IMG/VR virus record: IMGVR_UViG_3300046777_001575
Coordinates: 1 to 64,000 of that record
DNA length: 64,000 nt
Source: a virus
Reading direction: 5' to 3' (one strand)
This document shows positions 17,671-61,159 of the stretch, piece after piece (within the stretch, counting starts at the first letter, position 1; the number at the start of each line of letters is the position of its first letter). The notes beneath the pieces were generated by a model. It was not told the DNA's origin, made no database searches, and saw only the letters and a program-made list of their open reading frames with translations. A program made the translations under genes and the position numbers.

Positions 17671-18308
17671 TATACTTCTTCCAAAGTTACAGAGACATTC
17701 CAGTAGTCAAACTTTGTTCCTCTTTTTTCAACTGAGTAATTAAAATTACTAATAAACATTTCTATTAGTTGATTATACTGTCTAAGACGATCATACGGGT
17801 CTGGCTGACCATTAAAAACATCTTTTTTGTCATACGCAAGAAAAACCCAGAAAGAGTCTTTATGATTTTCATACCACTCAAGCATATCTGCTCCACCTGC
17901 GCCACCATCTGTTGTATATGATGTATGTGGCGATATGCCAGTTTCTGCATTAAATGCTGGAATATTAGAATGAGATCTAGACGGAATCATATTCCAACTG
18001 GTACTAAGTTTTAATTTATCTGCAATATGATAGGATCTCATTCTTCCATTAATCATTCTTTCACGCTTTTCAATACGTTCATCTGAAAACTCTAATGGTG
18101 ATCTGTTGTCATCTGTTAAAATTAAAAACTGATTAATTAGTGTGTCGTCTGGTTCACCAGTTGTATCTGCACCAACTTCTAACCCATATGGAACATATAA
18201 CTTATTAATTATGGTGCCTGAATTTTCAGACCAAAGCATACCACTAGGTCTACTATATCTTTTTCTTCCTTGGATATAAGAGTACCTTGGATCAATTTCG
18301 TCTGCCAC
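17670..18308 (-). CDS. Distal tail (Dit-like) protein
   Basis: The 212-residue protein is encoded directly after the tape measure and before the large hub, the standard place for the distal tail protein that caps the tube. It contains [18 protein letters not shown] and a C-terminal strand ([13 protein letters not shown]) typical of minor tail proteins in actinobacterial siphophages. It starts with GTG at 18308, overlapping the end of the tape measure by 17 bases, with GGGGG 8-12 bases upstream. No adhesion domain insertion is seen. Confidence 0.6.
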
Positions 18309-21300
18309 TTATACCAATCCCCCTAATTCTTCTGTCTTCTGTTTGTCTAATTGTTGACATTACTGCCTGTGCAATCTCGTTTGGATTAGCATCTGTCTTT
18401 GCATTAACAGTTAATGTATATGTATTATTATACACTGCTCCCCCTGGGTTTTTACCACTATTCATTGCTCTGAGAGTATCAACACCATGTGTATCGACTG
18501 CATACTTACTCATTATAAATTCTCCTGGAGTTAACATTGCTGGGATAGTATCTGTTCCTCTTGCAAAACCACCACTAGCAAAATATTTAGGAGGTACTAT
18601 TCCACCCATGCTAAAACCAAATCTACCAAACACGCTCTTTAAAGCATTAGTTACTGTTGCAACAGGTTTTGTAACTATATTTTTTACTGCTGATGCAACA
18701 TTGGATACCCCAGTTGCAACTGCCTTGGCTACTGTAGAAACAGTACTTGCAACTGTTTTTACTACCGCAGTTGCTGGCTTTGTAACTGCTGCTACAACCT
18801 TTGCAATTGGCTGATTTACACCTAAATTCCACCCAACAGAAGGAACGGATGTTGTTTTTGTTAATGGGCTTCCACCAAGTGGATTAAATGTAGGGGTTGT
18901 TGTTGCTGTAGGCTTAGGAGTAGGTACTGGATTTGGTGTTGGATTTGGTGTTGGATTTGGTGTAGGGGTAGGATCTGGTGTAGGATCTGGCTTTGGTGTA
19001 GGGGTAGGGTCTGGCTTTGGTGTAGGGGTAGGGTCTGGGGTCGGAGTAGGCTCTGGTGTTGGTTCTGGTGTAGGCTCTGGTGTAGGGGTAGGCTCTGGTG
19101 TACCAGATGTTGCTCCAGTGATTGCATCATTGCCACTTGACTGTTGATTATTATATGCCTGTATTAATTTGTCTTGAGTATTTAAAGCAAGTTGCATTGA
19201 CTCTATAAACTGCTTACTTCTTACCATAGCAAGATCTACCTGATTTTTAATTGCTTCCCAAGCATCTCTTGTTTTTCCAAGAACAGTTAAATTTTCAATA
19301 TCAGTTTTTAATTGAATTTGTTTTAAACGAATAAATTCTTGAGCAGGTTCTATCTTCTTTTCTTCTAAATCAAATATCTCATTTTGCAAATCTTTAATAT
19401 CAGACTCAAGTTCTTTCCTAGTTCTATATGTTTTTGTAACTGGGTCATAGGCTTTTACTGAGTTGAGTTCATACTGTCTAGATTGCTCTAATGCTTCTCT
19501 CTGCTTTGTTACAGCATCAGCAGCCTGCTGTGCTCTCATTTCTTGTGCAGCCCTTGCCGCTGCTGCTATATCTCCAGATGTTAGAGCCTCAGCAAGTGTT
19601 AGTTGGCCTCTTTGCTGATTAGCAATAGCAGCATTAGCCTTTTCAACATCGTCTAGTGCTTTGATTCTTTCATCATATTTTTCATTAATTTTTTGCTCTT
19701 GATCTTCAATAGCCTTTAAGGATGCTTCCTTATCATCAATTTTATATTGAATTCCAGCAATAGTATTTTGTGCTTCCTCAATTATTTTATTGCTTTCTTT
19801 AGTGTCTAAATTAAACTTTATTTGAAGTGCAGTTTCTTCAACATCAAAGGCCTCCATAGCGTTACTAAATCCTTGATCAAACATGTCTTGCATAAACCCA
19901 ATAGTGCTCTTTAGTTGATTTAGTCTTTCATTAAAATCACTCACCATCTTATTTAGTTCATTTTGTGCAGCAATAATTTGTGCTCTATCTGCACCCTTAC
20001 TTATTAAACTGTTTATTCTTGATTGTTGAGCAGCAATAGCATTTTCCATTGATCTTAAGTTTTCATCAGAGCCAATTGCAAAAGCAGTTTCTGAACTGTA
20101 TTGTTGTCTAATTCTATTTTCTTGAACTCTATCTTTCTTAAATTGAGCAATGTCTGTTTTTATTCCTGAAACTGCTGCAGCCTTTTCTTGTGCAATAGTT
20201 AATGCTTTATATTTTGCTATAAGTGATTTTAAGGTTTTATCGTTAACCCCATTTGCAATTGCTGCTGCAATTGTTTTATCAGAAATTAATTCGTATGCAT
20301 TGGCAACTGGCACTCCAAGTTTAGACAACTTATCGAATGCAATAGTTTGATTTGATAATGCTTTAGACTCTTCTTCCATGCTAGAATTAAAATCTCCCAT
20401 GGTGATTGAATACAAAGCCTCTTGAATATTTTTAGCATCTCTTTTTAGTGCAATAATATTTCCCTTGTTGTCAAACTTAAACAAAGAATTTTTTCTCTTT
20501 TCATATTCTTTTGGATCCATGCCAACAATTAGTTCAATAAGGTCCTGACTTCCACCTAGTGCTCGAATATCATTTTCTATACCACTAAATACATTTATTG
20601 TCTTGCTGCCTCCAAATAATTTATCCAATGCCTTACGAGAAGCAGACCAGCCTTCTGTAACTTTGATTTGATTCATTCTTACATCTCTAAGTTTCTTTAC
20701 AAGGTCGTCAAGTGGAGAAGCCTCAACCTTGCTTCCTCCACCAGTATTGCCACCTGTTGGAGCATTTGTATTAACTTGAACATTATCAACAACAGCCTTG
20801 TTTCCTTGAGCCTCTATATATTTTTGTACAATATAGGATTTGCTTCCAGTAATACCAGCACCACCTCTTGGGCCAGTTTCTTTACGCCAAGCCTTGAAAT
20901 CTTCGCTTTCAAGTATCTGTGGTTCTGGAACATTAATTAATGTAGAGATAGTAGTTGTATAAACTTTTTGCTGATCTTCAGTTAGAGTATTGAAATATGC
21001 TTCATCAAATGCTGCAGTTCCCTTAACCTGTGGCATAATTTCATAAACAATTTTTGCTGTTAAATCTTTGCTTCCTTCAATGCTGTCAAGCATTTTGTTT
21101 AGTCTGTCGTATGCTTCTTTATTCTTTGGATCTATGTAATAACTTACCATTACATCTGATGGTATAACAGCATTAAGATTATTTAACTTAATTATATTTT
21201 TTGTAAAATCAAGAGCATCTGAGTCTTTTTCAAATGCTTCTACCTTAGTAATAAATTTTGTTTGTACTGTTTTATTGATTTTATTGTCTGCACCAAGAAT

Positions 21301-24300
21301 ATTTTGTGCTGCAACACCAATTGACTCAGAAGTTGCACCACTAAACTTTGTAATAATATTCATCATCTTTGGAGCAATATCTTTATTGTCTGTTGCTAAC
21401 TGAAGAAGGCTTCTAAACACTGCTGGAGGTATATCGCCACTTGCCATCTTTGCCTGAATCAAGAACTCTTGTCCACTATCAATAGCACCAGACTTTCTCA
21501 AATCTCCTGCTTGCTGATTAACAACATCAAGATAAGCCAATTGATTTGGATCATTCTTATATTTTGCAGTAGTAGCCTTTTTCATTCCAGACATCATTGC
21601 TTCTTGAAGTCCTCCAGCACTATTGTACTGGCTAACAATGTCTCCTTGCAATGCTGCTTGGGCACCTGTTAGTTTATCTCTTTCTTTGATATACCTGGTT
21701 TGCATTTCATTGGCTTCATTAATTTTACCCTGCAACTTTAACTCTTCAATTTTCTTTTGATAATACATATCAAATGAATCAAGCATTTGCTTGTTTTGCT
21801 CCATAGCAATTTTTGCATCAACTGCATATGCTGCTCCTAAAGTCCCTGCTTGTTTTGTAAATTTCTTTGATGCAAAATAGCCTCCGATAGCACCTGCTGC
21901 TGCACCAATTCCTCCACCAATTATTGCTCCAACAACGTTTCCAACTACTGGAACAGCGGTACCAATTGCTCCACCAATTGCTGCGCCTGCTGCTGCTCCT
22001 CCAAGAGCAGAAGCACCTATTCCAACCTTTTGCATTGTTTTTTGTCCAGCAAGTTTGGTTATAGGATTTGCATTTTGAATATTTGAGATACTGCTCTTCA
22101 TATTCTTAGAATTTTCTTGAATCATTTTCATTCTAATTTCAAGCGGCTTATCTAAAAGGTTTTCTCCATTAGGTCCTAGAAGACTTTCTAGTTGAGCAAT
22201 AACCTTAAGACCAATTGACATGTCTCCTGCTTGTCTTGCAGCATTCATTGCTAAACTCTTTGCCTGACCTATATCCATAGCACCTGACATAATTGCAGAA
22301 GATAACTGACTGCTCAAATCTTTTACTGCAACATTTCCCTTGCCTGCAGCATTTTGTTCAGCAATTCTCTTTGTTAATGCTTTACCTTCTGCAGTCTGAG
22401 TAAATGCTTCTCCATACGTTGTCTTTCCTGTTGCTGGACCAAGCATTGAAAAAGAGTTTTTGCGTCTCAGGTCCATTTGTTCAGATGCTGTTACTTTACC
22501 ACTAAACTTTGCTATTTCATTAATTGCAGAAGTTGTTCCTTTAAACTTTTCGCTTTCTTCCAATACCTTTTTCTGTGCTCCGTCAAATGCCATTCTTAGC
22601 GCAACAAAGGATCCAACTGTTGCTGCAAGACCAATTGCTAGTGCTGCTGCTGGACTCTTTAGCATTGGCAAAATCATTGACAATCCCATTAAAGGCATCA
22701 TAACCTTTTGTGATATTTCTCCAACTTTGCCTGGGGCCATAGATCCAATCATTGCTGCTCCAGAAGCAATTCCTACTGCTCCCCCAAGACCCATCCCTGG
22801 TCGTTTACCTGCATCAATTCTTGCTTGTCTTTTTGCTGCTCTATTTTCAGCAAACTTAGTTAATCTTCCCATTGGCGTTCTTGCTTTTGCTTCTGCTGCT
22901 GCTCTTGCATCAATAATTGATTGCTGGTATGCAACCTTTGCAGCCAACTTACTTCTTTTTTCTTCTAATGCTGCTTGTTTTCTTCTTCCCCGCATAACTG
23001 GATCAATTGGTCCAGTAGTTCCATACATAGCAGTTTTGTTTGCATTAATTCTTGCTTGTGTTCTTGCTTCTGCTCTTTGTCTTTTTTCAATTTGGCGACG
23101 TAAAGATTTTGCATCAGCATCTATTGGTCCTGTTCCATACAACAATGTTCTTGATGCTGCTGCTGCTGATTGAGAAAGAGTTGTTCCGATTGTACTACCA
23201 ACAGATCTTGCTTCTGCAATAGATCCTCTTGCTCCATCTATTAATGCTGTTGCTACTGTGCTCCTTGCTTCTGGTGCATCGGATTTTCCACGCAAGACCA
23301 TAGGCTTTTGACGAATTTTTGGCTCTGTTGATGCTGGGGCTAGTCTTGTATCCTTTGTACTTCCAGTAGATGACTTAACTCCAGCAGGCTTACTTGTTGT
23401 CTTTGGTTTTTTTGTTTTTCCAGTTTTTGGATCTTCTACTACTTCGTCTGGTTTAATTAAAATAGATGTATGAAGTTTGTGTATTTTTTTCCAATCAACC
23501 TTTTTACCTTCTCTAAGTCTATCGACCATTGCTTGATAATATGGTCTTTCTTCTGGACTAAGGTCCATAGTTGCTAGTGTTTTTTCTAGTTTAGGTAAAA
23601 CTCTATCAATTTCAGCATTCATTGCATTGTGATATTCTTGAGCAGTCATCCCCTTTGCAATATCTGCTGTTGCGTTTCCAAACCAGAATGGAGATTTTCC
23701 TGCTGCAGGGCCCTTAACACCACTCAGGTTTATTTTTGCCATCTCTTCCATTGAAGGAAGATTTTTTACAAAGTCTCTCTTGCCAGATGCTCTATCAAAT
23801 ACTCCTGCTGCTCCAACATCTGCAATAACATTTCCACCTAAGTTTCCAGCCTTTAGGTCTTTGTCTATTCTAAGGTTTGCTGCTACAAGTTGTCTAAAAT
23901 ACTGTTCTTTTGTAAAGTTCTTGCCCATCTTTGAAGAATCAAACCTTGCATCATATGGAGACTCTAATACAATTATCTTTCTCTTACCGCTTGGGTCTGT
24001 AGGATCAATCATTGTCCTTACAGTTTGTTTTGGAGCATCTAGTCCATGAACATCACGAGCAATTTGAGTTGCTCTTTGTTCTGCAAGTGCTCCCTTTTCA
24101 TCAAGCATAGGCTTAACAAATACTCTTGATCCATCTGGCTTTTCATATAGTCCACCTAGGCCACTAACAGGGAAACTGAATCCAGTAGTTGGAGAGATCT
24201 GTTTTCCAAAGTCTGTTGGAGATAACTTGCCAGACTTGGTTTTTGCTGCCTCTTTTGCAATATCCTTTAGTATCTTTACATTCTTTGCTTGGCTTGGGTT

Positions 24301-27240
24301 TGCTGCTCTTTTTGCTGCTTCATCACTTCTGCGCTTAGATTCTTCATCTTGGCTTATTGATACACGATGACCAGAGCCAAGTCTGTTCATATTTACAACA
24401 GTTCCATCATTAAGTGTAACAGTTGAAGATCCAGTCTTAACAGCCCCACTCTTTTTGCTTACTCTTTCTTCAATAGTAAATGATTTGATAAGTCCCTTTT
24501 CAACTGCATTACTAAGAATCTTTCTGCTTTCTTCTGGAGTTGTTCCAAGACCTTTTCCAAGCAAGAACTTTGTAGATGTTTGATACAACTTTTGAGCATC
24601 CCTATATACAGTGCTTGAAGCAATCTCTGGACGTTCTGCTGGAATTCTCTTTGTAAAAATGTCACGAACTAAATTATCATTTACTCCTTTTATCTTCCCA
24701 TCTGCAAAATCTTGTTTAATTATTTCAATTATTGCACGATCCATTGCCTCAACACTTGCTGCTGGAAGTCTAGAAGGGCTCCACTTTCCTGGACCAAGTT
24801 TTTCCCACTCGGCTATAAATATTTTTGGATCTACACCTGCACTAGAAGTCATAGACTTATTTAAGTGCTCTGGGAAAGTAAATGCAAGTTTATGAAGTGT
24901 GGCTGTTGTTGCTGGAAGACCCTGTGATTTTAAAATTGCTTCAAGTGCTCTAAGTTTACCCTTTTGATCATCAGACAGAAACGCATTATCTCTTATGATG
25001 TCAGAAATAAGTTTTTGTTCACTCTTTCCACCAACGTGTGTGATATTTGTTTTTGTTGCTACATCTACTCCAGTGCTTCCCTCATTAAATCCCTGTACTT
25101 TTCTACCTGCAACCAATTGTGCAATCATTGGTCTGTTTGCTGGATCTTGTGCTGATTTTGCTGGAATAACTGCTTCTCCAGGTGTAAGCATTGTTGGAAC
25201 AGAGTCGGTATTACCGCTTCCTGGAACTTGCGTAGTTCCTGTAGAATACTTCTTTAGTCCTGGACCCTTACCTCCACCTTTAACTGGACCCGTGAAGCCT
25301 ATTTGTGCTGCAATTGCTCTCTTATATGCTGATGCAAGTGAGTTAACTGCTGCTGCCTCAGAAGTAAATGTTTGTTGAAGTCTTTGATGTACTTGGTCAA
25401 GGGATGCAGCAACTGCTGATGCTTCTAACTGCTCTTTAGTTAGATAAGATGTTTGTTCTCCTAAAATCTTGCTTGTATTTCCAGTTTTGTTATACATTGA
25501 CTTCATGCTTGCAAAAAGTTTAATAATGTTTGCAGCAGCGTTTGCTATCAAACCAAATGTCATAAGGAGAACTGGACCAATTCCAGCAACTGCAACAGTT
25601 AAAATAGTAATAAACTTCTTTGTTCCATCTCCAAGGTTGTTAAACTTATCAAGAACTTTGCCAACAAACTCAACTATAGGGGTAAGTGCTTTTAAGAATT
25701 GTTCTCCTACTGGAGCAAGAGAAGTTTTAAGATCTTCCATAGATTTCTTAAACTTATATGTTGTTGTATTTTGAATCTTATCTAATTCTCGCTGTGACAA
25801 GATAGCAAGTTCTTCTGTAGTTGCCCTTGTTAGACCTAATACTCTTTGCGCTTGTGTACCTTGCGCTGTTACGTTCTGAAATAATGTAGATAGTCTTGAG
25901 AACTGGAACTTACCAAACAACTGTTCAATAGCACGAGCACGATTAAGTGGATCTAAGGTATCTAGTGCCTGTGCAAAACCAACAACAGTAGCCTTTATGT
26001 CTCCCTTATTTGCTTCAACAATGCCACGAATATTAACACCAAGATTTCCAAGCATCTTTGCTGCTTTATCAGATGGATTAATTAATGATGCAAGACCAGA
26101 CTTTAGTGCGTTAGCACCTTCTGATGCGTTGATTCCACCTTCCTTCATTGCTGTAAGGAAGAATGCCAAATCTTCTACATCTCCACCAAGTTGCTTAACA
26201 ACTGGACCAGCCTTTGGAATTGCAACTGTTAAGTCTTCAATTGATACAACAGTTTGGTTTTCAACTGCGTTAAGAAAGTCAATTTTCTTTGCAAGATCTG
26301 CTGAGGCAACACCAAACGCATTTGTTACCGATATTGTTGTTTCCAATGCCTGTGTTTGTTCAACTCCACCAAGAACTGCAAGCCTTGTTGCCTGTGCAAC
26401 CTGTGCAGTTAGTTCTGCCCCCATCTTACCCATTGCTGCTGCATCTGCAGCCATCTTCATGGTGTCTTCAACTGCAACTCCATACTTGGTATATTCTTTA
26501 GCAAGAGTTTGAATCTGCTTTATCATTGCATCTGTTTCTTCTTGCGTTGTAAACATTTCTCCGTATACACGCTTGAATCTGATTGCTTGCTCTTCAAGTT
26601 GCATAAATGTCTTTGAAGCCTGTGCTCCAAGCATTGCCAATGGGACTGTGAAACCAACCATCAACTGACGGCCAGCCCACTGTGTATTCTTACCAAAATT
26701 TAGAAGATTTGTGGATCCTTGTTTTAATAGTTGATTAAGGAGTTGCTGTCTCTGTGCTGCGATTGCTGTTTGAGTGCCTAGATTCTTCATATCTAGGGTA
26801 AGAGGTCTTACAGCGATTGCCTCTAATGCACCATTTGCACCACGACCCAGTTTAATATACTGTGTCTGAATATCTTTTACACGCTCTCGTGCAACCTTGT
26901 TTATTGTTTCAAACTCAGACCTAAATAGTCTTCCAAAGGTTTTTGTGGCTGCTCCAGTGTATCTAAAATATTCTCTGGATGTTAACTTGTTACGTTCTAA
27001 CGCATCAGTAAAATGCTCTGTGCTTGTTGTTACTTGTCGCATAGATGCCTGGAATTGTCCAGTAGCATTTATTGCGTTCATCAAGTTTTTTGCTTGATTT
27101 GCTGATACTGCTGCTGCTGCAGTACCAGACTTTGCCATTTGTGTATGGAAGGCTGATATTTGACGTTGTAGAAGTTTTAGACTTGCTAAAGCATCCGACG
27201 TATCAATATTTACATTAATATTGGATTGAATATCAGCCAT
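18292..27240 (-). CDS. Tail tape measure protein with kinase-like insert and Pro-rich linker
   Basis: At 2982 residues this protein would set tail length. The usual 0.15 nm per residue gives up to about 0.45 micrometres, less if inserted domains do not count. The N-terminal 500 residues match the TP901-type tape measure core ([37 protein letters not shown]). Hydrophobic or glycine-zipper segments lie near 540-570, 1485-1550 and 1737-1792. Residues about 1015-1260 look like a degenerate kinase fold. A coiled coil lies near 2470-2520 and a PT/PE/PD/PK-rich linker at 2711-2778. The motif TxPxMLTPGE occurs twice, near 690 and 2915. The ribosome binding site GAGGTG precedes the ATG at 27240. Confidence 0.88.
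18905..19105 (-). repeat. Pro-rich linker-coding repeat in tape measure gene
   Basis: In-frame imperfect repeats encode a stretch such as [13 protein letters not shown] that changes to [13 protein letters not shown] and then [11 protein letters not shown]. The alternation of Pro with Thr, Glu, Asp, Lys or Asn predicts an extended, stiff linker. It is a potential substrate for prolyl hydroxylation and O-glycosylation. Confidence 0.7.
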
Positions 27241-34705: not shown

Positions 34706-35287
34706 CTAATTTCTCCACCCTGGTCTTGCAGCCCTGAATAGCGCATTAAGAGATTTTTCACTCATCTGAAATAGCCCCTTTGATATACGCATATATTCGC
34801 TATCTTTTTGTGCTAGATGAACAAAAAGAAGGGTTAGGTGATCATCTTCACTAGAAGAGGGAAAGTCTGGTCTTCCATGTACTTCCTCTTCACCCTTAAT
34901 AAAAAAGATAGAGTTTGGTACATTGCTAAAACTTTCACCATTAATAATCAATGGCCAATCGATAGTGCCATCAATAACCATGTCCATTACCCACTCGCCA
35001 GTAGTTATATCTTTGTGTTCTCTAAGTTCTGGAACTAGACCATCTTTAATTCTGTAGTCAACTATTTGACTGTATACGATTTCTAGTGAGTCATCTCCAG
35101 TTTCTTTCTTTGCTATATTTAAAAACATTGTACTAAACTCTTCTGGCAAAAAGACTACCTTGTAGTACCTAGTAAGTTCTTCACCATAAGACCAAGAACT
35201 CATATCTTTTTTTTGATCTAAAACATATGCTTTTATTTTGTCAAAAGTTTCATTATCAAAAAAATTATTTTTATATATAGATCTCAT
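34706..35287 (-). CDS. 2-oxoglutarate/Fe(II) oxygenase-like protein (copy 2), between portal and protease
   Basis: The 193-residue protein has H91-x-D93 (REHKDI), distal H137 (EEVHGRPDFP) and the IDWPLIINGESF segment shared with the proteins at 846-1538 and 54525-55064. This points to one paralogous 2OG-Fe(II) oxygenase-like group. In the third copy the matching motif is EHWREDFP. It is inserted between portal and protease genes, which are normally adjacent, so it has probably been acquired. Its start shares bases with the portal stop (TAATG). It may hydroxylate a virion protein, but no substrate can be named. Confidence 0.6.
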   Translation of the reverse strand: MRSIYKNNFFDNETFDKIKAYVLDQKKDMSSWSYGEELTRYYKVVFLPEEFSTMFLNIAKKETGDDSLEIVYSQIVDYRIKDGLVPELREHKDITTGEWVMDMVIDGTIDWPLIINGESFSNVPNSIFFIKGEEEVHGRPDFPSSSEDDHLTLLFVHLAQKDSEYMRISKGLFQMSEKSLNALFRAARPGWRN

Positions 35288-44297: not shown

Positions 44298-45011
44298 TTA
44301 TTTAAAAGTTTTCTTTTGCCAAAACTTAAGTCTATAACCATTTTGAAAAGTAGATCTAACCTTATTACTTTGTTCTTCTACTTTTTTTGTTGAGAAGTTT
44401 TTGTCTAATTCCATGACCCAATCTTCTCTTTTAAATGGAAAAATTTGAGACATTGGCGTTCCCTGCTTTATGGTTCCTTTAAAATTCTTTTTTATTAAAA
44501 AAGAAAGATGTCCATCAGTAAAATAGTTATCAGTATCAACTACAGCATCTATAGCCTTTAGTGGTGATGGTGGTTGGTGCATTGGGCTTGTAAAAAATGT
44601 GCTATATCCAGCACTAGTTTGTACCATCCAAGTAGGATGAATTCTTAAAATTTTATTGCAATAGATATCGCTATCTATCGGCAAATGAGATACCTGTTCT
44701 TGTGAATGTTCACTTATTAATAAGGAGTAATACTTGTTCATGGCAGCAGGAAGTTGAATGTTAACATTTCCATCAGTTGTGTCTATATATATATCACATG
44801 GTACCTTTAGAAGATATCCCATTGCCATTGCATCAAAAAACGCTTGACATTTTTTTACTGTTAACCTCATGACACCCTTGTCAGGAACATCGCTACCTGA
44901 AATTGCAGGTTGCTCTTTATACCAAGTCGGAATATTTTTAGTTGCCTGCTCTGGTTCTGGAACAATATTAACTAATTGAGGATACATTTGAAGAAATCTA
45001 ACAGTGTTCAT
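44298..45011 (-). CDS. Conserved hypothetical phage protein
   Basis: A 237-residue protein with VPEPEQATKNIPTWYKEQ, a conserved-looking MRLTVKKCQAFFDAMAMGYLLKVPCDIYI centre and LRIHPTWMVQTSAGYSTFFTSP. The pattern resembles a conserved protein seen in aquatic tailed phages, but I cannot name a biochemical activity. Its promoter is TGATATAAT (45033-45041), with a GAAAGG site before the ATG. It is the third gene after a GNAT-like gene and a 137-residue gene and may act with them. Confidence 0.5.
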   Translation of the reverse strand: MNTVRFLQMYPQLVNIVPEPEQATKNIPTWYKEQPAISGSDVPDKGVMRLTVKKCQAFFDAMAMGYLLKVPCDIYIDTTDGNVNIQLPAAMNKYYSLLISEHSQEQVSHLPIDSDIYCNKILRIHPTWMVQTSAGYSTFFTSPMHQPPSPLKAIDAVVDTDNYFTDGHLSFLIKKNFKGTIKQGTPMSQIFPFKREDWVMELDKNFSTKKVEEQSNKVRSTFQNGYRLKFWQKKTFK

Positions 45012-52890: not shown

Positions 52891-52920
52891 TTGACTTTTG
52901 GCCAAAATTTGTGTTATACT
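52891..52920 (+). promoter_or_regulatory. Endolysin promoter (-35 TTGACT, extended -10 TGTTATACT)
   Basis: TTGACT at 52891-52896 and TATACT at 52915-52920 are 18 bases apart, and TG precedes the -10 with one base between. It is the best classical sigma-70-type promoter in the window. Transcription would begin near 52927, exactly at the interleaved inverted repeats. Confidence 0.7.
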
Positions 52921-52946
52921 TGGTAGTAACACCTACCAAGGTGTTA
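52919..52946 (+). promoter_or_regulatory. Two interleaved inverted repeats at the endolysin transcription start
   Basis: CTTGGTAG (52919-52926) pairs with CTACCAAG (52933-52940), and TAACACC (52927-52933) pairs with GGTGTTA (52940-52946). The arms alternate, so only one hairpin can form at a time, or both could make a pseudoknot; in DNA they are overlapping palindromes. The position over +1 suggests an operator or a leader switch that controls lysis timing. Confidence 0.55.
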
Positions 52947-52967
52947 TTGTTTTCTAAGGAGGAAACT

Positions 52968-53531
52968 ATGATTAAATTTATCGAAAGAAACAAAGAGATC
53001 ATTAGCACACTCAGTATCGTGGTATTAGTTAGTGTTTTTTCAAATTCTGCTAATGCTTCTGTAGATCTTGATACTAAAAACAATCTTAGCCTGGAACAGG
53101 CTCAGACTGAAAAGACTACCTCGAAAGAGGTTTTTTTGGTTTCTAAGGCCAAAAAGTTGGAGAGTTTTGAAAACAAGACATCTCTTACAGACCTAGAACT
53201 AAAAGAACTGCTTTCTCTGGTTGGCTTCAAGGGTAGAGACCTTGTTGTTGCCTGGGCAGTAGCAAAAAAGGAGTCTAATGGTAGACCATTGGCATTCAAT
53301 GGAAACCACAAGACTGGAGATTCATCCTACGGGATGTTTCAAATTAATATGATAGACAACCTTGGTCCTGACCGTAGAACCAAGTTTGATCTTGATTCAA
53401 ATGCTGAGTTATTTAACCCCGTGAAGAATGCAGAGATTGCATACTACATGACAAACGGTGGAGAAGACTGGTCTTCTTGGAAGGGTATAACCCCTAAGAC
53501 CAAGTACTGGATGACTAAATTTCCTAATTAG
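52968..53531 (+). CDS. Secreted lysozyme-like transglycosylase (endolysin)
   Basis: The 187-residue protein would degrade host peptidoglycan. It has a signal peptide (basic MIKFIERNKE, hydrophobic TLSIVVLVSVF, predicted cleavage after A30). The lysozyme-like domain has the catalytic Glu E102 in VAWAVAKKESNG and SYGMFQINM at 120-128. These are the two signature pieces of SLT/lysozyme-like enzymes. The real start is the ATG at 52968 behind AAGGAGGAAACT; an upstream frame from 52911 overlaps the promoter. It is the only plus-strand gene among the fibre genes. The export signal suggests a signal-arrest-release or Sec-type endolysin. Confidence 0.78.
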   Translation: MIKFIERNKEIISTLSIVVLVSVFSNSANASVDLDTKNNLSLEQAQTEKTTSKEVFLVSKAKKLESFENKTSLTDLELKELLSLVGFKGRDLVVAWAVAKKESNGRPLAFNGNHKTGDSSYGMFQINMIDNLGPDRRTKFDLDSNAELFNPVKNAEIAYYMTNGGEDWSSWKGITPKTKYWMTKFPN

Positions 53532-53547
53532 TATATAAAAATAAATT

Positions 53548-53571
53548 ACCCCCTAGAGAAATCTGGGGGGT
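53548..53571 (+). terminator. Terminator between converging endolysin and glycosyltransferase genes
   Basis: A 10-pair stem (ACCCCCTAGA with TCTGGGGGGT) and a GAAA loop, followed by TTTATTTAT on the plus strand. One U-G pair favours the plus-strand RNA. An A-rich stretch on the other side (AAAATAAATT) makes it likely to stop the converging minus-strand transcript as well. Confidence 0.85.
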
Positions 53572-54528
53572 TTATTTATCTCTTCTTGGTGGCATTCCAT
53601 ATCCACGATTTTCTATAACAACATGAGAAGAATAGTTAGGAATAAAAGTTAAATATTTTTTAGAAAGTCCAGTAAGTTCACAAAACTGCTGGACTTTTTC
53701 TTTTGGTATATCTAGCATACCTGACATTAATAAGGACAGCCTATCTGTTGATTCTTGCACATGGCTCCAATAAACTTCTTTTCTATCATCTGCCCATGGA
53801 CGTAATGTTTCTCTTGTAACGGTTCCATTTGGCTGCTTATGAGACTCATGGTGAAAAACATCTCTAGTTCCTATTGAATATATTTCCCAATTTGCTGCAA
53901 AAGTTCTTAATGATAAACAGATTTCCTCGGTATTAAAAGATTCTTTTTTTGATATTCCAACCTCGTCAACCCATTTTTTGGGAGCAAAAAGATAACAACA
54001 GGTTGCCCAATATGACCTTACTATTTCATTATTTTTTAAAACACTATACCCTGGAAAACTAAAACCAGGAATAAACTCATTATAGTGGGAGGCATATTTT
54101 GAAAAAGTATCAACACCAAAATCAACTGAATTATCCGACATAAGTTCATAATTTGCTGGAGCATAAGCAATTATAATATTTTTACCTAAAGAGTTTATTT
54201 CTTTATATCTAGTACAAGCCAAATCATCCCATCCAAAAGACGCATAGGTATGAGAATCAAACTGTATAAAAAAATCATACTCCAGGTCAATCTGTATTGC
54301 TAAATTTCTAGCCCAACCAAGTCCACCTCTATATTTAGAAATATCATAATGCAAATACCTAATTTGATTTGAAGGTATAAAAGAAAAATCAAAAGTTTCA
54401 GAATCTTCAGAAACTAAAGAGAAAAACAATCTATCTTTATATTTGGCCTCCTGCCACAGTGATTTGATTGTTGTATAAAATTCTGGATCACAATAATTAA
54501 CAACACTAATTAATATTTTTTCGTTCAT
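53572..54528 (-). CDS. Glycosyltransferase of the Skp1 hydroxyproline GlcNAc-transferase type
   Basis: The 318-residue protein matches the family that adds GlcNAc to hydroxyproline of Skp1 (GT60, GlcNAc domain). It starts with KILISVVNYCDPEFYTTIKSL, then IRYLHYDISKYRGGLGWARNLA and FFIQFDSHTYASFGWDD, where D91-S-H93 is the metal/nucleotide-sugar motif. A conserved SYWATCCYLFAPKKWVDEVG and FNTEEICLSLRTFAANWEIYS (acidic catalytic region) then VFHHES follow. The ATG overlaps the preceding 2OG gene (ATGA). Its position right after two hydroxylase-like genes suggests that it glycosylates hydroxyproline in a phage or host protein. The acceptor and sugar are inferred. Confidence 0.72.
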   Translation of the reverse strand: MNEKILISVVNYCDPEFYTTIKSLWQEAKYKDRLFFSLVSEDSETFDFSFIPSNQIRYLHYDISKYRGGLGWARNLAIQIDLEYDFFIQFDSHTYASFGWDDLACTRYKEINSLGKNIIIAYAPANYELMSDNSVDFGVDTFSKYASHYNEFIPGFSFPGYSVLKNNEIVRSYWATCCYLFAPKKWVDEVGISKKESFNTEEICLSLRTFAANWEIYSIGTRDVFHHESHKQPNGTVTRETLRPWADDRKEVYWSHVQESTDRLSLLMSGMLDIPKEKVQQFCELTGLSKKYLTFIPNYSSHVVIENRGYGMPPRRDK

Positions 54529-55064
54529 TTTTTCTTTCTTATGTGTGTCTCTAGATATTCTGGTCCCTCAACAAAATACCAATGATCTGGTTCTGCAAAA
54601 TGAAAAAAAACCATAGCAACATTATTGTTGCTTGGATTTGGAAAATCTTCTCTCCAGTGTTCTTGATCATTTCCATAATAAGCCAACGCTTGATTTGGCT
54701 TTAAAGAATATGGAACGCCCTCAACAAAAAGGGGCCAGATTTCTTTTTGATATACACATAAGTCTAAAGTATATGTGCAAGCGTTATCATCCTTGTGTCT
54801 ATACAGACTAGCATCTGGGCCTTCATAGTGTGCAAACAACGAGTATGTTGGTAATAAGTTTTCGCTTTTAAAAATTTTTCTAGCAATAGGAACCAGTTTA
54901 ATTGATATTTCTTTTAAAATTGGCAAAGATTTTTCAGAAGCAATATACCTAGAAAACCCATTCTGATATTCAAGACTTTTTGGATCAGGAATAGAACTTA
55001 TTAAATTATCGTAATCTATTTGATTTAAAACATTCTCTATGAGAATAGGATTTTGAATATTCAT
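54525..55064 (-). CDS. 2-oxoglutarate/Fe(II) oxygenase-like protein (copy 3)
   Basis: The 179-residue protein has H90-x-D92 (YRHKDD), distal H136 (DQEHWREDFP) and EIWPLFVEGVPYS between them. It is paralogous to the proteins at 846-1538 and 34706-35287. The fold looks like a 2OG-Fe(II) oxygenase. A clear 2-oxoglutarate-binding Arg after the distal His is missing, unless the Arg in HWRE serves. It overlaps both neighbours by 4 bases, so it is made together with the prolyl-hydroxylase-like and glycosyltransferase proteins. Confidence 0.6.
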   Translation of the reverse strand: MNIQNPILIENVLNQIDYDNLISSIPDPKSLEYQNGFSRYIASEKSLPILKEISIKLVPIARKIFKSENLLPTYSLFAHYEGPDASLYRHKDDNACTYTLDLCVYQKEIWPLFVEGVPYSLKPNQALAYYGNDQEHWREDFPNPSNNNVAMVFFHFAEPDHWYFVEGPEYLETHIRKKK

Positions 55065-55645
55065 TTAATCCAACTTGCTACAGCATATCTTGTTCCATCA
55101 GTAACTTCTGAAACTGAATGATTATATACATATGTTGATGGGAAAATTATCATTTCATTTGCTTTTGGTTTATATGATATCTCAAATCTTGGAAAGTTTA
55201 TTTCTCCACCAGTATAATTATCGTTTAAATAGTAAACACTAGAAAGTCTTCTATGGTATTGTGGATGATCATCTATATGATTTGTAAAATATTGACCCTT
55301 TCCATATTTTAGAAGTTGATAATTGTCGTGATCAGAAAAATAAACTCCGTAACTAGCCATATATTCTTTTTCTGCAACAACCAAAGTGTTATAAAATAGG
55401 TTAGCAATATTTTTCTGAAATGCATCTACAAGTGTTGAATACTCTTCATCTATACCATTAATAAACGGAACAGATATAGAACTTGTGTTTCTTACTTTTG
55501 TATCTACCCCGCCAATAACTGTTGCAGAAAACCACTCAATACCAGAAGATGTCATTCCTTCTTCTATATCGTTCACTAAATTTTCATGACCATCAATTAG
55601 ATCAGAATAAACAACTATGCCTGGAGCAATTTCTTTTTTTACCAT
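55061..55645 (-). CDS. Prolyl-4-hydroxylase-like 2OG-Fe(II) oxygenase
   Basis: The 194-residue protein shows the full set of 2OG-Fe(II) residues in the prolyl-4-hydroxylase arrangement. They are H123-x-D125 (FTNHIDDH), distal H176 (YVYNHSVSEV) and R186 (TDGTRYAVASWIK), with the typical LSSVYYLNDNYTGGEINFP between. It would hydroxylate proline (or another side chain) using O2 and 2-oxoglutarate. Its start abuts the stop of the zinc-finger gene. It stands in the same operon as the glycosyltransferase and follows the gene for a protein with many PT-rich linkers, which makes these linkers candidate substrates. Confidence 0.8.
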   Translation of the reverse strand: MVKKEIAPGIVVYSDLIDGHENLVNDIEEGMTSSGIEWFSATVIGGVDTKVRNTSSISVPFINGIDEEYSTLVDAFQKNIANLFYNTLVVAEKEYMASYGVYFSDHDNYQLLKYGKGQYFTNHIDDHPQYHRRLSSVYYLNDNYTGGEINFPRFEISYKPKANEMIIFPSTYVYNHSVSEVTDGTRYAVASWIK

Positions 55646-55885
55646 TTACCATTTCCCTATCGGACAAAAAGCCTTTTCAAGTTTTGTTTTTGCTTTCATA
55701 AAACAACCACACTTTTTACATTGTGTTGTTAGTTTTATTAACTCTGGGCAACTTTTGCAAAGACTATATCTTTCTGCTGCTTTTTCTTCACTTGCCCATT
55801 CAGTGTTTGGATTAACAAGATCCCAGGGACGAACCTGTCTCTGTTCATTGTTTTGTTTACTTTTATACTCTTCCCATTTATTCAT
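55646..55885 (-). CDS. Cys-rich zinc-binding protein of aquatic-phage type
   Basis: The 79-residue protein has a charged N-terminus and a compact Cys cluster: YSLCKSCPELIKLT, then QCKKCGCFMKAKTKLEKAFCPIGKW. The arrangement of C-x2-C, C-x2-C-x-C and a final C matches a small family common in T4-like and other aquatic phages (function unknown). The start overlaps the previous stop (ATGA) and the stop abuts the next start. Zinc binding is likely. Confidence 0.65.
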   Translation of the reverse strand: MNKWEEYKSKQNNEQRQVRPWDLVNPNTEWASEEKAAERYSLCKSCPELIKLTTQCKKCGCFMKAKTKLEKAFCPIGKW

Positions 55886-56271
55886 TCGTATTGCCCTGGT
55901 AGTTTAAATGTATCATCTAAGAACTTCCATCCTACTGTAACAATTCTTCCATACTCATGACCATCGTCAACATTGATAGCCTTTGCATCTGAAAGCAAGA
56001 TAGAGTATAACATTTCATCACATAAAATTGTTTCTACAACTTCATTGTTTTTAATAATATTTACTGTATATGAACCAGTTTGTTCGTCAATGCTATTTTC
56101 TGTAAAACTATCTGCAGAATAAAGCATTGCTCCAATATTAGAATCAACAACATCAATATGAACAACTTCATCACCAACAACATATGCTATAGCCATTCCT
56201 GCAATATTGTTTGCTAATTTATTTTGTTTGTCTTCTGCTGTTACCCATTTAACATCCTTATAATTAATCAC
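55882..56271 (-). CDS. Hypothetical protein heading the hydroxylase-glycosyltransferase operon
   Basis: A 129-residue beta-rich protein (AYVVGDEVVHIDVVD, TGSYTVNIIKNNEVVETILCDEML, YGRIVTVGWKFLDD). It starts with GTG behind AAGGAG and has its own promoter (TGATAGAAT at 56298-56306), so it is the first gene of the operon that ends with the glycosyltransferase. No family is recognised. Confidence 0.55.
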   Translation of the reverse strand: MINYKDVKWVTAEDKQNKLANNIAGMAIAYVVGDEVVHIDVVDSNIGAMLYSADSFTENSIDEQTGSYTVNIIKNNEVVETILCDEMLYSILLSDAKAINVDDGHEYGRIVTVGWKFLDDTFKLPGQYE

Positions 56272-56297
56272 AAATATCTCCTTATTTCTCTAATAAT

Positions 56298-56306
56298 ATT
56301 CTATCA
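56298..56306 (-). promoter_or_regulatory. Extended -10 promoter TGATAGAAT of the hydroxylase-glycosyltransferase operon
   Basis: TGATAGAAT on the minus strand, about 27 bases before the GTG at 56271, with the AAGGAG site between. It lies in the 57-base gap after the Pro-rich fibre gene. Confidence 0.5.
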
Positions 56307-56328
56307 TAAAAAGACTCTACTGTCAAAA

Positions 56329-59300
56329 CTAGCACGAGGATAGGCTTCCAAGCGGATCACATGCTCCTGGATACATGCAGTATGGAGAAGGAAGGTTGGC
56401 GTAGTCAGACTGGCTACATGTACGATTTGAACTTGCTGGTGGAGTTGGGGTAGGAGCAGGTGGTGTTGGTGTAGGAGCATAATCTCCCTGACAAATATTT
56501 GGACATGATCCTGGAGTTATACACCATGTTCCATTGCCATAGGTTCCACATGCACCACCATAACTTACGCAAGTATTGCAGTCAGCAGTTGGTGTTGGAG
56601 CAGTTGGTGTTGGTGCAGTTGGTGTTGGAGAACAGTTTGTAGACTGGCAAGCAGGGAAGTCCCCAGTTGTGTATATACATTGACGTGAGTAGCCAGTACC
56701 AGAACCAGAATTATCATATCCTGGAGTTGTATATGAACAGTTTCCTGTTCCACCGCACTGATAACTTTCAGTACACTTCCACTGTGCAGTTACTGCAGTT
56801 GGTGTTGGAGCAGTTGGTGTTGGTGTTGTAGGAACACAACCATTAGTTTGATCTATATTTGGACAAGAACCTGGAGTTACACATGTTCTATAATATTCTG
56901 AACCAGAAGGGCATCCAGAATTTGGTCTTGTTGCATATGATCCATCAGCATATGGAGAATAAGTATTACATGTGTTACAGTCAACTGTTGGAGTTGGGGC
57001 AGTTGGAGTTGGGGCAGTTGGAGTTGGGGTAGATCCACACAAAGACTGAGCATTGGCCAATGCAGTTTGATAATTTGTGGTTACTCCTGATTCAGTACAT
57101 CCTGTTGCACTTTGATATTCTGCTCTAGCAGTATTGCTATTTGGACCATCAATTACTTCTGGGAGACCATTACAGCATCCATAAGCATAATAGAATGTTT
57201 GAGTTGGTGTTGGGGCAGTTGGGGTTGGGGCAGTTGGGGTTGGTGTTTGAGAATATTGATATACAGTTATTCCAGCATTAAGACCACAAATATCTGTTGT
57301 TCCTCCAGCAGGACTCTGAGAAGCAACAGTTCCATTATTTTGTTGAGTTGCACCAACTGTTGTATAATCTAAGTATTCAAATAACCATCCAGAAGCAACA
57401 ATTGCATTTCCTGCAGCAGATTCTGTCATTCCTACAACATTAGGTAATGTACAATTTGCAGGTGGTGTTGGGGTAGGAGCAGGTGGTGTTGGTGTTGGAG
57501 CAGGTGGTGTTGGGGTAGGTGTAGAAGAACATCCTGTTGGTGCAGGTCTTGCAGATACTATTGAGCAATCAATCTTTGTCGCTCCTATTCCACTAAGCAA
57601 GTTTGTGTATACTGAACAAGCCTCATTTATATTTGTTGTCAAAACATTGTTTGCATCAACTGTGTATGATTCTGAATATGGCTGACCGTCAAGGCAATAT
57701 GCAAGATAAACTGTTCCAGGGTTTACAACTGGAACTGATGGGCATCCGCCACCATATCCAAGAAGAGCAACTATTTGCTCACTAGTTAACGATGGATTTG
57801 TTGTTGTTCCAACAACTACAGTTGAACTTGCTGTCGCTGTTCCATATGCTCCACCTCGGCTACCAACGATTACTGGATCGCAATAAGTATAAATGTTATA
57901 TGTTCCTGGGGTTGGTGTTGGTGTTGGGGCTGGATCATTTATACAAGAAACACCCAAACTGGTATACAATGGAGAAGATGCTGTTCCCTGTACACATGTA
58001 AAGTTAGTTGCTCCATTTTGACTTAAACTATTTCCAATTCCAGTACATGCTTCATTTACTGATGTATATCCACCATAAGATATGTCCATACCAGAGTATC
58101 CGTTTATGTATCCACTGCTATCACAATATGCATAGGTTATGTAGATTGGTCCTGATGTTGGTGTTGGTGTTGGTGCTGGAGTTGGTGTTGGGGAAGCACC
58201 AGGAGTTGCAGCAAATGTTATTGATCCTGTAGAACTTTGATATCCAGCACGGGATGCAGTTATATATACTGTATAAGATTGGTTTGGTGTTAGACCGCTA
58301 ATATTAAATTCTTCTGGAAATTCTTGATTCTGTGTTCCTAAAGAAGAAGAATAAGAGTTACTATAGTCGTGATTGGTTATAGTAACATTTGCATAAACGG
58401 AACTAGGATAAACATTCCATCCTGTTGTATATGTAAGTGTTGGCGTTGGAAGCGTTGGCAATGTTGGTGTAGGTGTAGGGGCAGGTGGTGTAGGTGTAGG
58501 GGCAGGTGGTGTAGGTGTAGGGGCAGGTGGTGTAGGTGTAGGGGCAGGTGGTGTTGGTGTAGGGGCAGGTGGTGTAGGTGTAGGGGCAGGTGGTGTTGGT
58601 GTAGGAGCAGTTGGTGTAGGAGCAGTCGGTGTTGGTGTTGGGCTTACTATGTTAAGTAAATTTCCAAAAAAAAACCATGTATCTGAGCCTATCTTTGAAA
58701 GAGTTCCTTTTGAGTACTGACCATCCAAAGAACGAACATTTGATTTGCTATTAAGAAATACCGAAGAATCTTCTTCAGTAATTGTCGTAAGTGCTGTACC
58801 TATTTGAATTATGTCAACAGAATAACCTACAGGAATTTGTACTGAAGAATTTTTTGGAAGAGTTAGAGTGTTTGGAGTAGAAGTAGATAGAAGAATAGTT
58901 TTTCCAATATCTTCTGCAGAGAGTGTAAAACTTTCTGTTTTTGTTATTACTGTTCCAGTGTTTGCAAGTGCTGGATCCAAGTCAAATCTTAAATCTACAG
59001 AATTCCAATCAATACCATTTCCAGCAAGATCTGAGTATGCTGATGTTGCTCCATTAATACCATTAGTAACTGCTGTATCAACATATGCTTTTGTTGCTAG
59101 ATTTGCAGTGTTAGCAATACCATGAACATCTGTAGTCTTTGCGCTATGTGTTGCATCTGCATCTACAAGATTTTGAAGGTGTTTTGCAATAGATGGGTTT
59201 ACTAGGTTTGCAGGATTTACATTTGCGCCATCATAGGCATATGATCCATAGTGATAAAGCCGTAGGGCTGCCTGAATATCTGCAGCATCTGAAAGACCAG

Positions 59301-59361
59301 GCACTTTGGTAGGGAAAAGCCCAGTGCCATTGACGGTATTATCAATATTTTCTGCTGCCAC
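56329..59361 (-). CDS. Giant modular adhesin/fibre with PT-rich linkers, PASTA and Cys-rich modules
   Basis: The 1010-residue protein has an N-terminal fibre module (VHGIANTANLATKAYVDTA, GNGIDWNSVDLRFDLD) shared with the 565-residue fibre. A PT/PPA linker at about 240-303 and an FN3-like domain (about 303-387) follow. Next are Cys-rich modules separated by short PTPTAPTPT linkers. A PASTA domain lies at about 635-706 (LPNVVGMTESAAGNAIVASG ... NGTVASQSPAGGT). More Cys-rich modules follow to the C-terminus. PASTA binds peptidoglycan, so it probably reads the host wall. Disulfides are likely outside the cell. It starts with GTG; a TGGTATAAT promoter precedes it. Confidence 0.72.
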   Translation of the reverse strand: MAAENIDNTVNGTGLFPTKVPGLSDAADIQAALRLYHYGSYAYDGANVNPANLVNPSIAKHLQNLVDADATHSAKTTDVHGIANTANLATKAYVDTAVTNGINGATSAYSDLAGNGIDWNSVDLRFDLDPALANTGTVITKTESFTLSAEDIGKTILLSTSTPNTLTLPKNSSVQIPVGYSVDIIQIGTALTTITEEDSSVFLNSKSNVRSLDGQYSKGTLSKIGSDTWFFFGNLLNIVSPTPTPTAPTPTAPTPTPPAPTPTPPAPTPTPPAPTPTPPAPTPTPPAPTPTPPAPTPTPTLPTLPTPTLTYTTGWNVYPSSVYANVTITNHDYSNSYSSSLGTQNQEFPEEFNISGLTPNQSYTVYITASRAGYQSSTGSITFAATPGASPTPTPAPTPTPTSGPIYITYAYCDSSGYINGYSGMDISYGGYTSVNEACTGIGNSLSQNGATNFTCVQGTASSPLYTSLGVSCINDPAPTPTPTPGTYNIYTYCDPVIVGSRGGAYGTATASSTVVVGTTTNPSLTSEQIVALLGYGGGCPSVPVVNPGTVYLAYCLDGQPYSESYTVDANNVLTTNINEACSVYTNLLSGIGATKIDCSIVSARPAPTGCSSTPTPTPPAPTPTPPAPTPTPPANCTLPNVVGMTESAAGNAIVASGWLFEYLDYTTVGATQQNNGTVASQSPAGGTTDICGLNAGITVYQYSQTPTPTAPTPTAPTPTQTFYYAYGCCNGLPEVIDGPNSNTARAEYQSATGCTESGVTTNYQTALANAQSLCGSTPTPTAPTPTAPTPTVDCNTCNTYSPYADGSYATRPNSGCPSGSEYYRTCVTPGSCPNIDQTNGCVPTTPTPTAPTPTAVTAQWKCTESYQCGGTGNCSYTTPGYDNSGSGTGYSRQCIYTTGDFPACQSTNCSPTPTAPTPTAPTPTADCNTCVSYGGACGTYGNGTWCITPGSCPNICQGDYAPTPTPPAPTPTPPASSNRTCSQSDYANLPSPYCMYPGACDPLGSLSSC
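58471..58640 (-). repeat. Tandem 21-base repeats encoding the APTPTPP linker
   Basis: About seven in-frame 21-base units encode the heptad A-P-T-P-T-P-P, nearly identical in DNA with occasional GTA/GTT changes. Shorter versions of the same linker recur at about 56450, 56590, 56800, 57000, 57210 and 57470. The DNA is prone to slippage, so linker length may vary between isolates. Confidence 0.85.
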
Positions 59362-60426: not shown

Positions 60427-60435
60427 ATTATACCA
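60427..60435 (-). promoter_or_regulatory. Leaderless promoter TGGTATAAT for 59980-60420
   Basis: TGGTATAAT followed by 6 bases and the ATG at 60420. The TAA at 60428-60430 is the stop of the collagen-like gene, which ends Val-Val-stop. Confidence 0.65.
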
Positions 60436-61159
60436 CGCTGACGTATACAGAATTGAAAATTACTGATGCATCAAAGTCTGTTCTTATCTGGGGGACGGCA
60501 CCATTTCCCCACATGTCTTTATCCTCTATAAAGATTTGCTGAGTAATAGAAAGTATATAAGTTCCTTGATATTTAAATGACCCTATTAACTGAACAAATT
60601 CTTTATCTTTGCTTGGAAAATAGGTTCTTATCCAAACCTCTGTATTTGATGTATGGGTGGTTAGTTCAAAGTTATAGGTTACAAATACCTGAGATCCTTC
60701 TTTTATACCGTGAAAGTTTAAAGCCCTTTGATTACTATTCCAGAGACTTGTACATTCCGCAGGAAGATATGTTTCATTTTGTCTTTTTCCTTTAGTATCA
60801 AGAATAAGAGTTACCCACCCATCATCTCCTTGAGTAATACCCAACTTTATTGGTTTATCGAGCATATTAGTATATGATGCCCAGCCAGCCTGCTGACCAG
60901 CGGAAGATAAAGAACTTAATCCATCTTTTCCAGAAGGTCCTTGAGGACCTCTTGGCCCCTGCTTACCCTCTGGGCCTGGTTCTCCCTGCTTACCATCTTT
61001 TCCATCTCTGCCTGCAGGTCCTTGAGGCCCAACTGGTCCAGGAACTGGGAGGAAAGATAATGTATTTTCCGATGAAACACTAGTTTTATTTTGCTCAACT
61101 TGTGCAGCATAAGATGTTTTTTTTGCGCTAGGAAAATCCATGGATTTAGAAACTGCCAT
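60428..61159 (-). CDS. Collagen-like virion protein
   Basis: The 243-residue protein contains 13 uninterrupted Gly-x-y triplets at about residues 41-79 (GPVGPQGPAGRDGKDG and similar), enough for a short triple helix. Before them is a 40-residue N-terminal segment; after them a 160-residue beta-rich tip with KLGITQGDDGWVTLILDTKGK. Trimeric fibres with collagen-like stems are common in phages. A prolyl-4-hydroxylase-like enzyme is encoded 5 kb downstream in the same direction. The ATG lies 6 bases after TGAGATAAT without a ribosome binding site. Confidence 0.75.
   Translation of the reverse strand: MAVSKSMDFPSAKKTSYAAQVEQNKTSVSSENTLSFLPVPGPVGPQGPAGRDGKDGKQGEPGPEGKQGPRGPQGPSGKDGLSSLSSAGQQAGWASYTNMLDKPIKLGITQGDDGWVTLILDTKGKRQNETYLPAECTSLWNSNQRALNFHGIKEGSQVFVTYNFELTTHTSNTEVWIRTYFPSKDKEFVQLIGSFKYQGTYILSITQQIFIEDKDMWGNGAVPQIRTDFDASVIFNSVYVSVV

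Follow-up and report, generated by a model that had tools for sequence, protein, structure and literature searches.

The window, by which we mean the whole 64,000-base stretch analysed here, belongs to a 78,477-base IMG/VR virus record and encodes a portal protein 47% identical to those of Streptomyces phages, e.g. Coruscant, together with a tape-measure and minor-tail gene set. Owing to this Streptomyces-phage-like portal and tail gene set, the source is likely a tailed phage of an actinobacterium; a 12-kb query from its structural region had no match in a phage DNA search. The genes of interest run along the minus strand in the order collagen-like protein, two small tail ORFs, 1010-aa fibre, 129-aa ORF, prolyl-4-hydroxylase-type oxygenase (P4H), second oxygenase (OX2) and glycosyltransferase (GT), followed on the plus strand by a convergent lysozyme-like gene (Table 1). 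The four genes that an earlier note on this DNA had singled out (GT, OX2, P4H and fibre) all lie at these minus-strand positions, and the enzyme genes do overlap, with ATGA at both the P4H/OX2 and the OX2/GT junctions.

Table 1. Features of the fibre-enzyme locus and its borders (window coordinates).
Feature	Position	Strand	Basis
GT60-like glycosyltransferase, 318 aa; DSH 91-93, E201-E202	53572..54528	-	PF11397, AF2 model
OX2, second 2OG-Fe(II) oxygenase, 179 aa; HxD 90-92, H136, R138	54525..55064	-	conserved residues, AF2 fold
P4H-type 2OG-Fe(II) oxygenase, 194 aa; H123xD125, H176, R186	55061..55645	-	PF13640
Small ORF, 129 aa, fibre-enzyme gap	55882..56271	-	recurs in 14 related slots
Tail fibre/adhesin, 1010 aa, proposed substrate	56329..59361	-	tail-fibre PHROG residues 140-238; PASTA match
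Lysozyme-like gene (SLT_3), convergent, slot border in most relatives	52911..53531	+	PF18896 E=6.3e-16
Terminator-like hairpin, GT/lysozyme gap	53548..53571	+	pattern match only
Collagen-like tail protein, upstream, neighbour conserved in relatives	60428..61159	-	PF01391 E=7.6e-8

The fibre is rich in proline (128 residues, 59 P-x-P triplets), and its small domains are joined by APTPTPP/APTPTAPTPT linkers, with 10 APTPTPP copies in about 8 linkers. Two further structural proteins had been named alongside the fibre, and both descriptions are accurate: the upstream protein is collagen-like by its Pfam match, and the tape measure (18292-27240, minus strand) carries a PT/PE/PD/PK linker from residue 2714 with 20 prolines in 40 residues. 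The broader proposal that the phage modifies the proline-rich linkers of its virion survives in part: adjacency and covariation (see below) favour the fibre linkers as targets, and no link from the cassette to either the tape measure or the collagen-like protein was found.

The first enzyme of the operon matches PF13640 well above the cut-off (E=2.6e-19). Its iron triad, H123, D125 and H176, is invariant in 83/83 related P4Hs, and position 186 is arginine in 73 and lysine in 10 of them, such that a 2OG-binding Arg/Lys is present in all 83. The canonical P4H motif read from the letters is thereby borne out, and the enzyme is best described as a prolyl-4-hydroxylase-type oxygenase for which C4 hydroxylation of peptidyl-proline is predicted; related 2OG enzymes hydroxylate residues other than proline. 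A sequence search of the PDB returned bacterial and PBCV-1 P4Hs among its relatives; the top-ranked pentatricopeptide matches were repeat artefacts, with the true P4Hs lower in the ranking. Phages encode 2OG oxygenases in large numbers, one such P4H being matched by 184 records.

OX2 is recognisable chiefly by fold. It matches no Pfam family, its only PHROG matches are labelled 'ferrochelatase', and a PDB sequence search with its profile returned nothing useful. Its AlphaFold2 model (pLDDT 95.5) aligns in Foldseek with 2OG oxygenases and prolyl hydroxylases (E~1e-6), including MysH, TlxI, HIF prolyl hydroxylase 2 (PHD2), the PBCV-1 viral prolyl hydroxylase and the Dictyostelium PHD, and H90, D92, H136 and R138 are invariant in 34 relatives. 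On the modelled double-stranded beta-helix and the HxD...H motif, OX2 is a 2OG-Fe(II) oxygenase, in agreement with its earlier description as oxygenase-like. OX2 lacks an Arg/Lys at the usual 2OG spacing, about 8-12 residues past the distal histidine; the invariant R138, only two residues past H136, may bind 2OG instead. The OX2 profile also matches two more minus-strand ORFs of the window (34706-35287 and 846-1556), one of which sits between the portal and prohead protease genes; the 193-aa one keeps the HxD and H motifs and has no Pfam match. More generally, several PHROGs of phage 2OG oxygenases (phrog_2954, phrog_3531, phrog_2297 and phrog_274) bear the name 'ferrochelatase' or 'DNA endonuclease (V)', mislabels that have been carried into cyanophage and pelagiphage records. 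The cultured cyanophage Synechococcus phage S-SCSM2R (222458-234784) encodes a 427-aa protein matching both the P4H and OX2 profiles, a fusion with several glycosyltransferase genes and a radical SAM gene behind it and no Pro-rich ORF within 6 kb.

The third enzyme matches the Pfam 'GlcNAc' family PF11397 at 59.6 bits (curated cut-off 21; E=4.7e-16), by which domain we place it in CAZy GT60; the family assignment of the earlier note is therefore upheld, with no grouping to an unrelated family. D91, H93, W100, D101, E201 and E202 are invariant in 19 relatives, and the AF2 model (pLDDT 91.0) matches GT-A enzymes, its nearest PDB folds being polypeptide GalNAc-transferases (E~1e-10). The D91-S-H93 motif, with both metal-site residues invariant, resembles the DxH metal site of those transferases. 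PDB sequence searches with the GT and with its profile yielded nothing useful. Among cultured phages the enzyme is rare, with one weak match in Xanthomonas phage XacN1; its relatives, like those of OX2, are numerous in IMG/VR.

Two additional IMG/VR scans queried flanking genes only, so that loci were not picked for their cassette content. The 191 slot loci reduced to 117 distinct ones, of which 109 offered a fibre of sufficient length for analysis. The slot shows a recurring order of Pro-rich fibre, small ORF, oxygenase(s), sugar gene(s) and convergent lysozyme, and of the 109 fibre/slot pairs 103 have an oxygenase, 88 a sugar gene and 82 both. The commonest families are P4H (86), OX2 (81), epimerase (50), GT60 (45), the JmjC/cupin-like oxygenase c4 (32; KHxD...H conserved, a cupin-type iron site) and fucosyltransferase-like (31); rarer ones are SGNH-like, GT8-like, two further fucosyltransferase-like families, radical SAM, sulfotransferase, methyltransferases and a nucleotidyltransferase. 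Pfam matches for the sugar genes include GDP-sugar epimerase (PF01370/PF16363), sulfotransferase (PF03567), NTP transferase, FkbM methyltransferase, HtrL_YibB and a weak O-FucT, with the fucosyltransferase-like and GT8-like labels resting on weak or no Pfam matches plus sequence reading. Slot oxygenases (P4H, OX2, c4) and sugar genes are thus interchangeable among about a hundred relatives. The small ORF varies as well: the 129-aa protein of the window, which has neither a Pfam nor a PHROG match and is possibly a fibre assembly protein, is replaced in other slots by unrelated small ORFs.

A Pro-rich ORF lies within the five genes upstream of 71 of the 76 distinct OX2 genes that have five upstream genes available, as compared with 31% of other genes at the same loci. 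Indeed, on contigs that lack this lineage's marker genes, 11/12 OX2 genes still have a Pro-rich ORF upstream. The distribution is not that of a cassette found mostly in phages without Pro-rich proteins, the outcome that had been named as telling against fibre modification.

Several slots carry further features. Three Pro-rich fibre ORFs (L007:4556-5914, L022:5458-7179 and L041:5984-7786) have a C-terminal Hint/intein-like domain (weak Pfam), and fibre ends of this type terminate in ...VHNK or ...SHNKKG. A second kind of linker, FFPPFFPP/PPYF, occurs in L022:17103-17902 and in slots such as L259, L170 and L204; in some phages it accompanies GT60 and radical SAM genes. A window ORF at 44298-45011 (minus strand) matches DUF6065 weakly (E=0.0015, short of the curated cut-off), and a family whose DUF6065 match is weaker still sits between OX2 and GT60 in slots L035-L046.

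Enzyme type covaries with the linker motif of the neighbouring fibre. With similar fibres merged into 86 clusters, OX2 and P-x-P linkers occur together (odds ratio 14, p=2e-7), as do c4 and VTP linkers (p=2.7e-11). On a tree of flank proteins, which provides 13-23 independent pairs per trait, the associations persist, with values given as same/opposite pairs and p values drawn uncorrected from about 75 such tests: OX2-PxP 11.1/0.9 (p=0.006), c4-VTP 11.2/1.0 (p=0.006), sugar genes-PxP 10.5/0 (p=0.001) and OX2-non-GT60 sugar genes 11.7/0.2 (p=0.001). GT60, for its part, avoids VTP linkers (0.1/8.2, p=0.008). Linker classes and motif thresholds were set after the data had been seen, and the P-x-P result shifts with the threshold (at least 2, p=0.003; at least 4, p=0.006; at least 6, p=0.065). 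Neither OX2 nor c4 is significantly related to fibre length or Cys content on the same tree; one fibre domain family shows a negative correlation with OX2 (p=0.016). GT60 correlates with glycine (10.7/1.4, p=0.012), one result among the ~75 uncorrected tests to which we attach no meaning. This covariation supports modification of the phage's own linkers, and it predicts sequence preferences of OX2 for P-x-P and of c4 for VTP.

Because fibre and cassette are adjacent, part of the covariation could come from block transfer; at the extreme, fibre ends and cassettes would simply move together and their match would carry no functional meaning. Trait turnover on the flank tree is high (15-26 changes per trait), as such shuffling would have it. 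Yet P4H, which lies closer to the fibre than OX2, does not track P-x-P (3.7/6.6), and neither do the small ORFs adjoining the fibre show a significant association, both of which argue against block transfer; we hold linkage as the whole account to be improbable. The same P4H pairs give no support to the idea that P4H presence steers linkers towards P-x-P.

The enzymes might also act away from the fibre, on phage DNA bases, host surface glycans or host proteins, with their position incidental. Phage DNA modification is known to employ 2OG oxygenases plus glycosyltransferases, and the tail/neck regions of cyanophages contain arrays of 2OG oxygenases that lack a neighbouring Pro-rich ORF. Set against this, the window's oxygenase belongs to the P4H/PF13640 family and not to TET/JBP, the GT has a polypeptide-GT-like fold, enzyme type covaries with linker motif, and the place behind the fibre is steady even on contigs lacking this lineage's marker genes. 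We consider an off-fibre role improbable.

If the fibre linkers are the substrate, the next question is which residue receives the sugar. The earlier note proposed a chain modelled on Skp1, in which P4H would make 4-hydroxyproline (Hyp) in the linkers and the GT60 enzyme would add alpha-GlcNAc to it. One half of this proposal stands, in that the P4H, whose catalytic residues are intact, shares one overlapping operon with a PF11397 GT, and GT60 does contain a Hyp-modifying enzyme, Gnt1 of Toxoplasma and Dictyostelium, whose Hyp is made by PhyA (PMC6939170). The dependence of GT60 on Hyp fares less well: GT60 is not associated with OX2 (2.6/7.1 on the flank tree), P-x-P linkers and sugar genes are tracked by OX2 and not by P4H, and P4H is missing from the slot of many GT60 loci (L003, L006, L008, L010, L012, L013, L017). 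Such GT60-only phages of this clade are not devoid of hydroxylases, as all five records tested carry PF13640 oxygenases elsewhere, which speaks for the chain. In more distant phages, GT60s have TPTP proteins as neighbours, and 8/10 such records, which may be fragments, have no PF13640 match. Taken together, the Skp1-like chain appears unlikely.

The T. cruzi polypeptide alpha-GlcNAc-transferase is also a GT60 enzyme (PMC6939170) and has Thr as its acceptor (PMC3769586), which offers another reading: GT60 would glycosylate Thr of the Thr-Pro linkers in a mucin-like manner, with the oxygenases acting separately on Pro or supplying Hyp only for a fucosyltransferase/epimerase branch. The avoidance of VTP linkers by GT60 and the association of OX2 with non-GT60 sugar genes agree with such a division, as do the solved folds nearest to the GT model, which are those of Ser/Thr GalNAc-transferases, although fold similarity does not set the acceptor. 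TPTP-rich ORFs adjoin distant phage GT60s in 24/38 loci, with 12.5 expected, and GT60-like genes that a search with three query sequences recovered from two bacterial MAGs (Planctomycetaceae, L325; Desulfobacterales, L329) likewise neighbour TPTP-repeat proteins. Weighing the other way, GT60 loci of this clade nearly always have an oxygenase, and the linkers of GT60 loci contain no more or less Thr than those of other sugar loci (p=0.62 in the reduced set), which speaks against GT60 picking Thr-rich linkers. We therefore hold this reading tentatively, at somewhat short of an even chance. A Thr acceptor for at least some GT60s is what the missing GT60-OX2 association, the P4H-less GT60 slots, the TPTP neighbours and the records without PF13640 point to. 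Linkers with only 5-12% Thr+Ser nevertheless occur with OX2, fucosyltransferase-like and epimerase genes (L193, L276, L318), in keeping with Hyp as the acceptor of that branch. In the window itself, where Thr-rich P-x-P linkers are found with P4H, OX2 and GT60, either Thr or Hyp could serve as the acceptor.

On balance, the explanation that we favour, and regard as probable, is a virion-protein modification cassette that acts on the phage's own fibre at its Pro-rich linkers. Since the enzyme set tracks the type of proline repeat, the tail-fibre linkers of these phages are probably hydroxylated and glycosylated by their own enzymes. The fibre would be made with small domains connected by Pro-rich linkers; the co-produced 2OG oxygenases (OX2, with P4H) would hydroxylate linker prolines; and the GT60-type polypeptide glycosyltransferase would place an N-acetylhexosamine-like sugar on the same linkers, at Thr and/or hydroxyproline. 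Among relatives, a change of linker type goes with a change of oxygenase and sugar genes, joint swapping being expected if each enzyme set matches its acceptor sequence. The modification may serve to stiffen or shield the linkers, to alter receptor binding or to resist proteases.

A bolder generalisation, to which we give nearly but not quite an even chance, is that matched oxygenase and glycosyltransferase sets widespread among phages write Hyp-linked (and Thr-linked) glycans on their own tail-fibre linkers, with linker and enzyme set exchanged together to diversify an extensin- or mucin-like coat. Among the open-access papers searched, we found no description of such fibre hydroxylation or glycosylation in phages. 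If true, hydroxyproline O-glycosylation would extend to phages, a way of stiffening or shielding tail fibres and of diversifying them would come into view, and compact enzyme-linker pairs would become available. Furthermore, many phage 2OG oxygenases have no known role, and finding the matching substrate of some of them would make these orphan genes a testable system.

Among known systems, the hydroxylate-then-glycosylate logic on repetitive structural proteins is shared with Mimivirus L230, which hydroxylates and glycosylates collagen on Lys, and with plant extensins and arabinogalactan proteins, wall proteins whose Hyp-O-glycosylation relies on other GT families; neither system is from phages or forms a swappable cassette. 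The Skp1 pathway of Dictyostelium and Toxoplasma (PhyA and Gnt1) has the same pairing of a P4H-type oxygenase with a PF11397/GT60 GT. Its target is one proline of a cytosolic ubiquitin-ligase subunit, whereas the candidate target here is a set of repeated fibre linkers; the phage cassette also has a second oxygenase, and its distribution does not support GT60 dependence on Hyp. The T. cruzi mucin enzyme (TcOGNT) is of the same GT family and targets Thr-rich mucin-like chains, but it is a eukaryotic secretory enzyme with no oxygenase partner described. The chlorella virus PBCV-1 enzyme vCPH has a viral P4H fold, matched by both the OX2 (by fold) and the P4H of the window, and we know of no glycosyltransferase/fibre cassette paired with it. 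Although this viral P4H acts on Pro-containing peptides, hydroxyproline was not found in the virions (PMC7019647), an observation that counts against the fibre-modification reading. What sets the phage cassette apart from the eukaryotic systems is its tie to the fibre and the interchangeability of its oxygenases and sugar genes.
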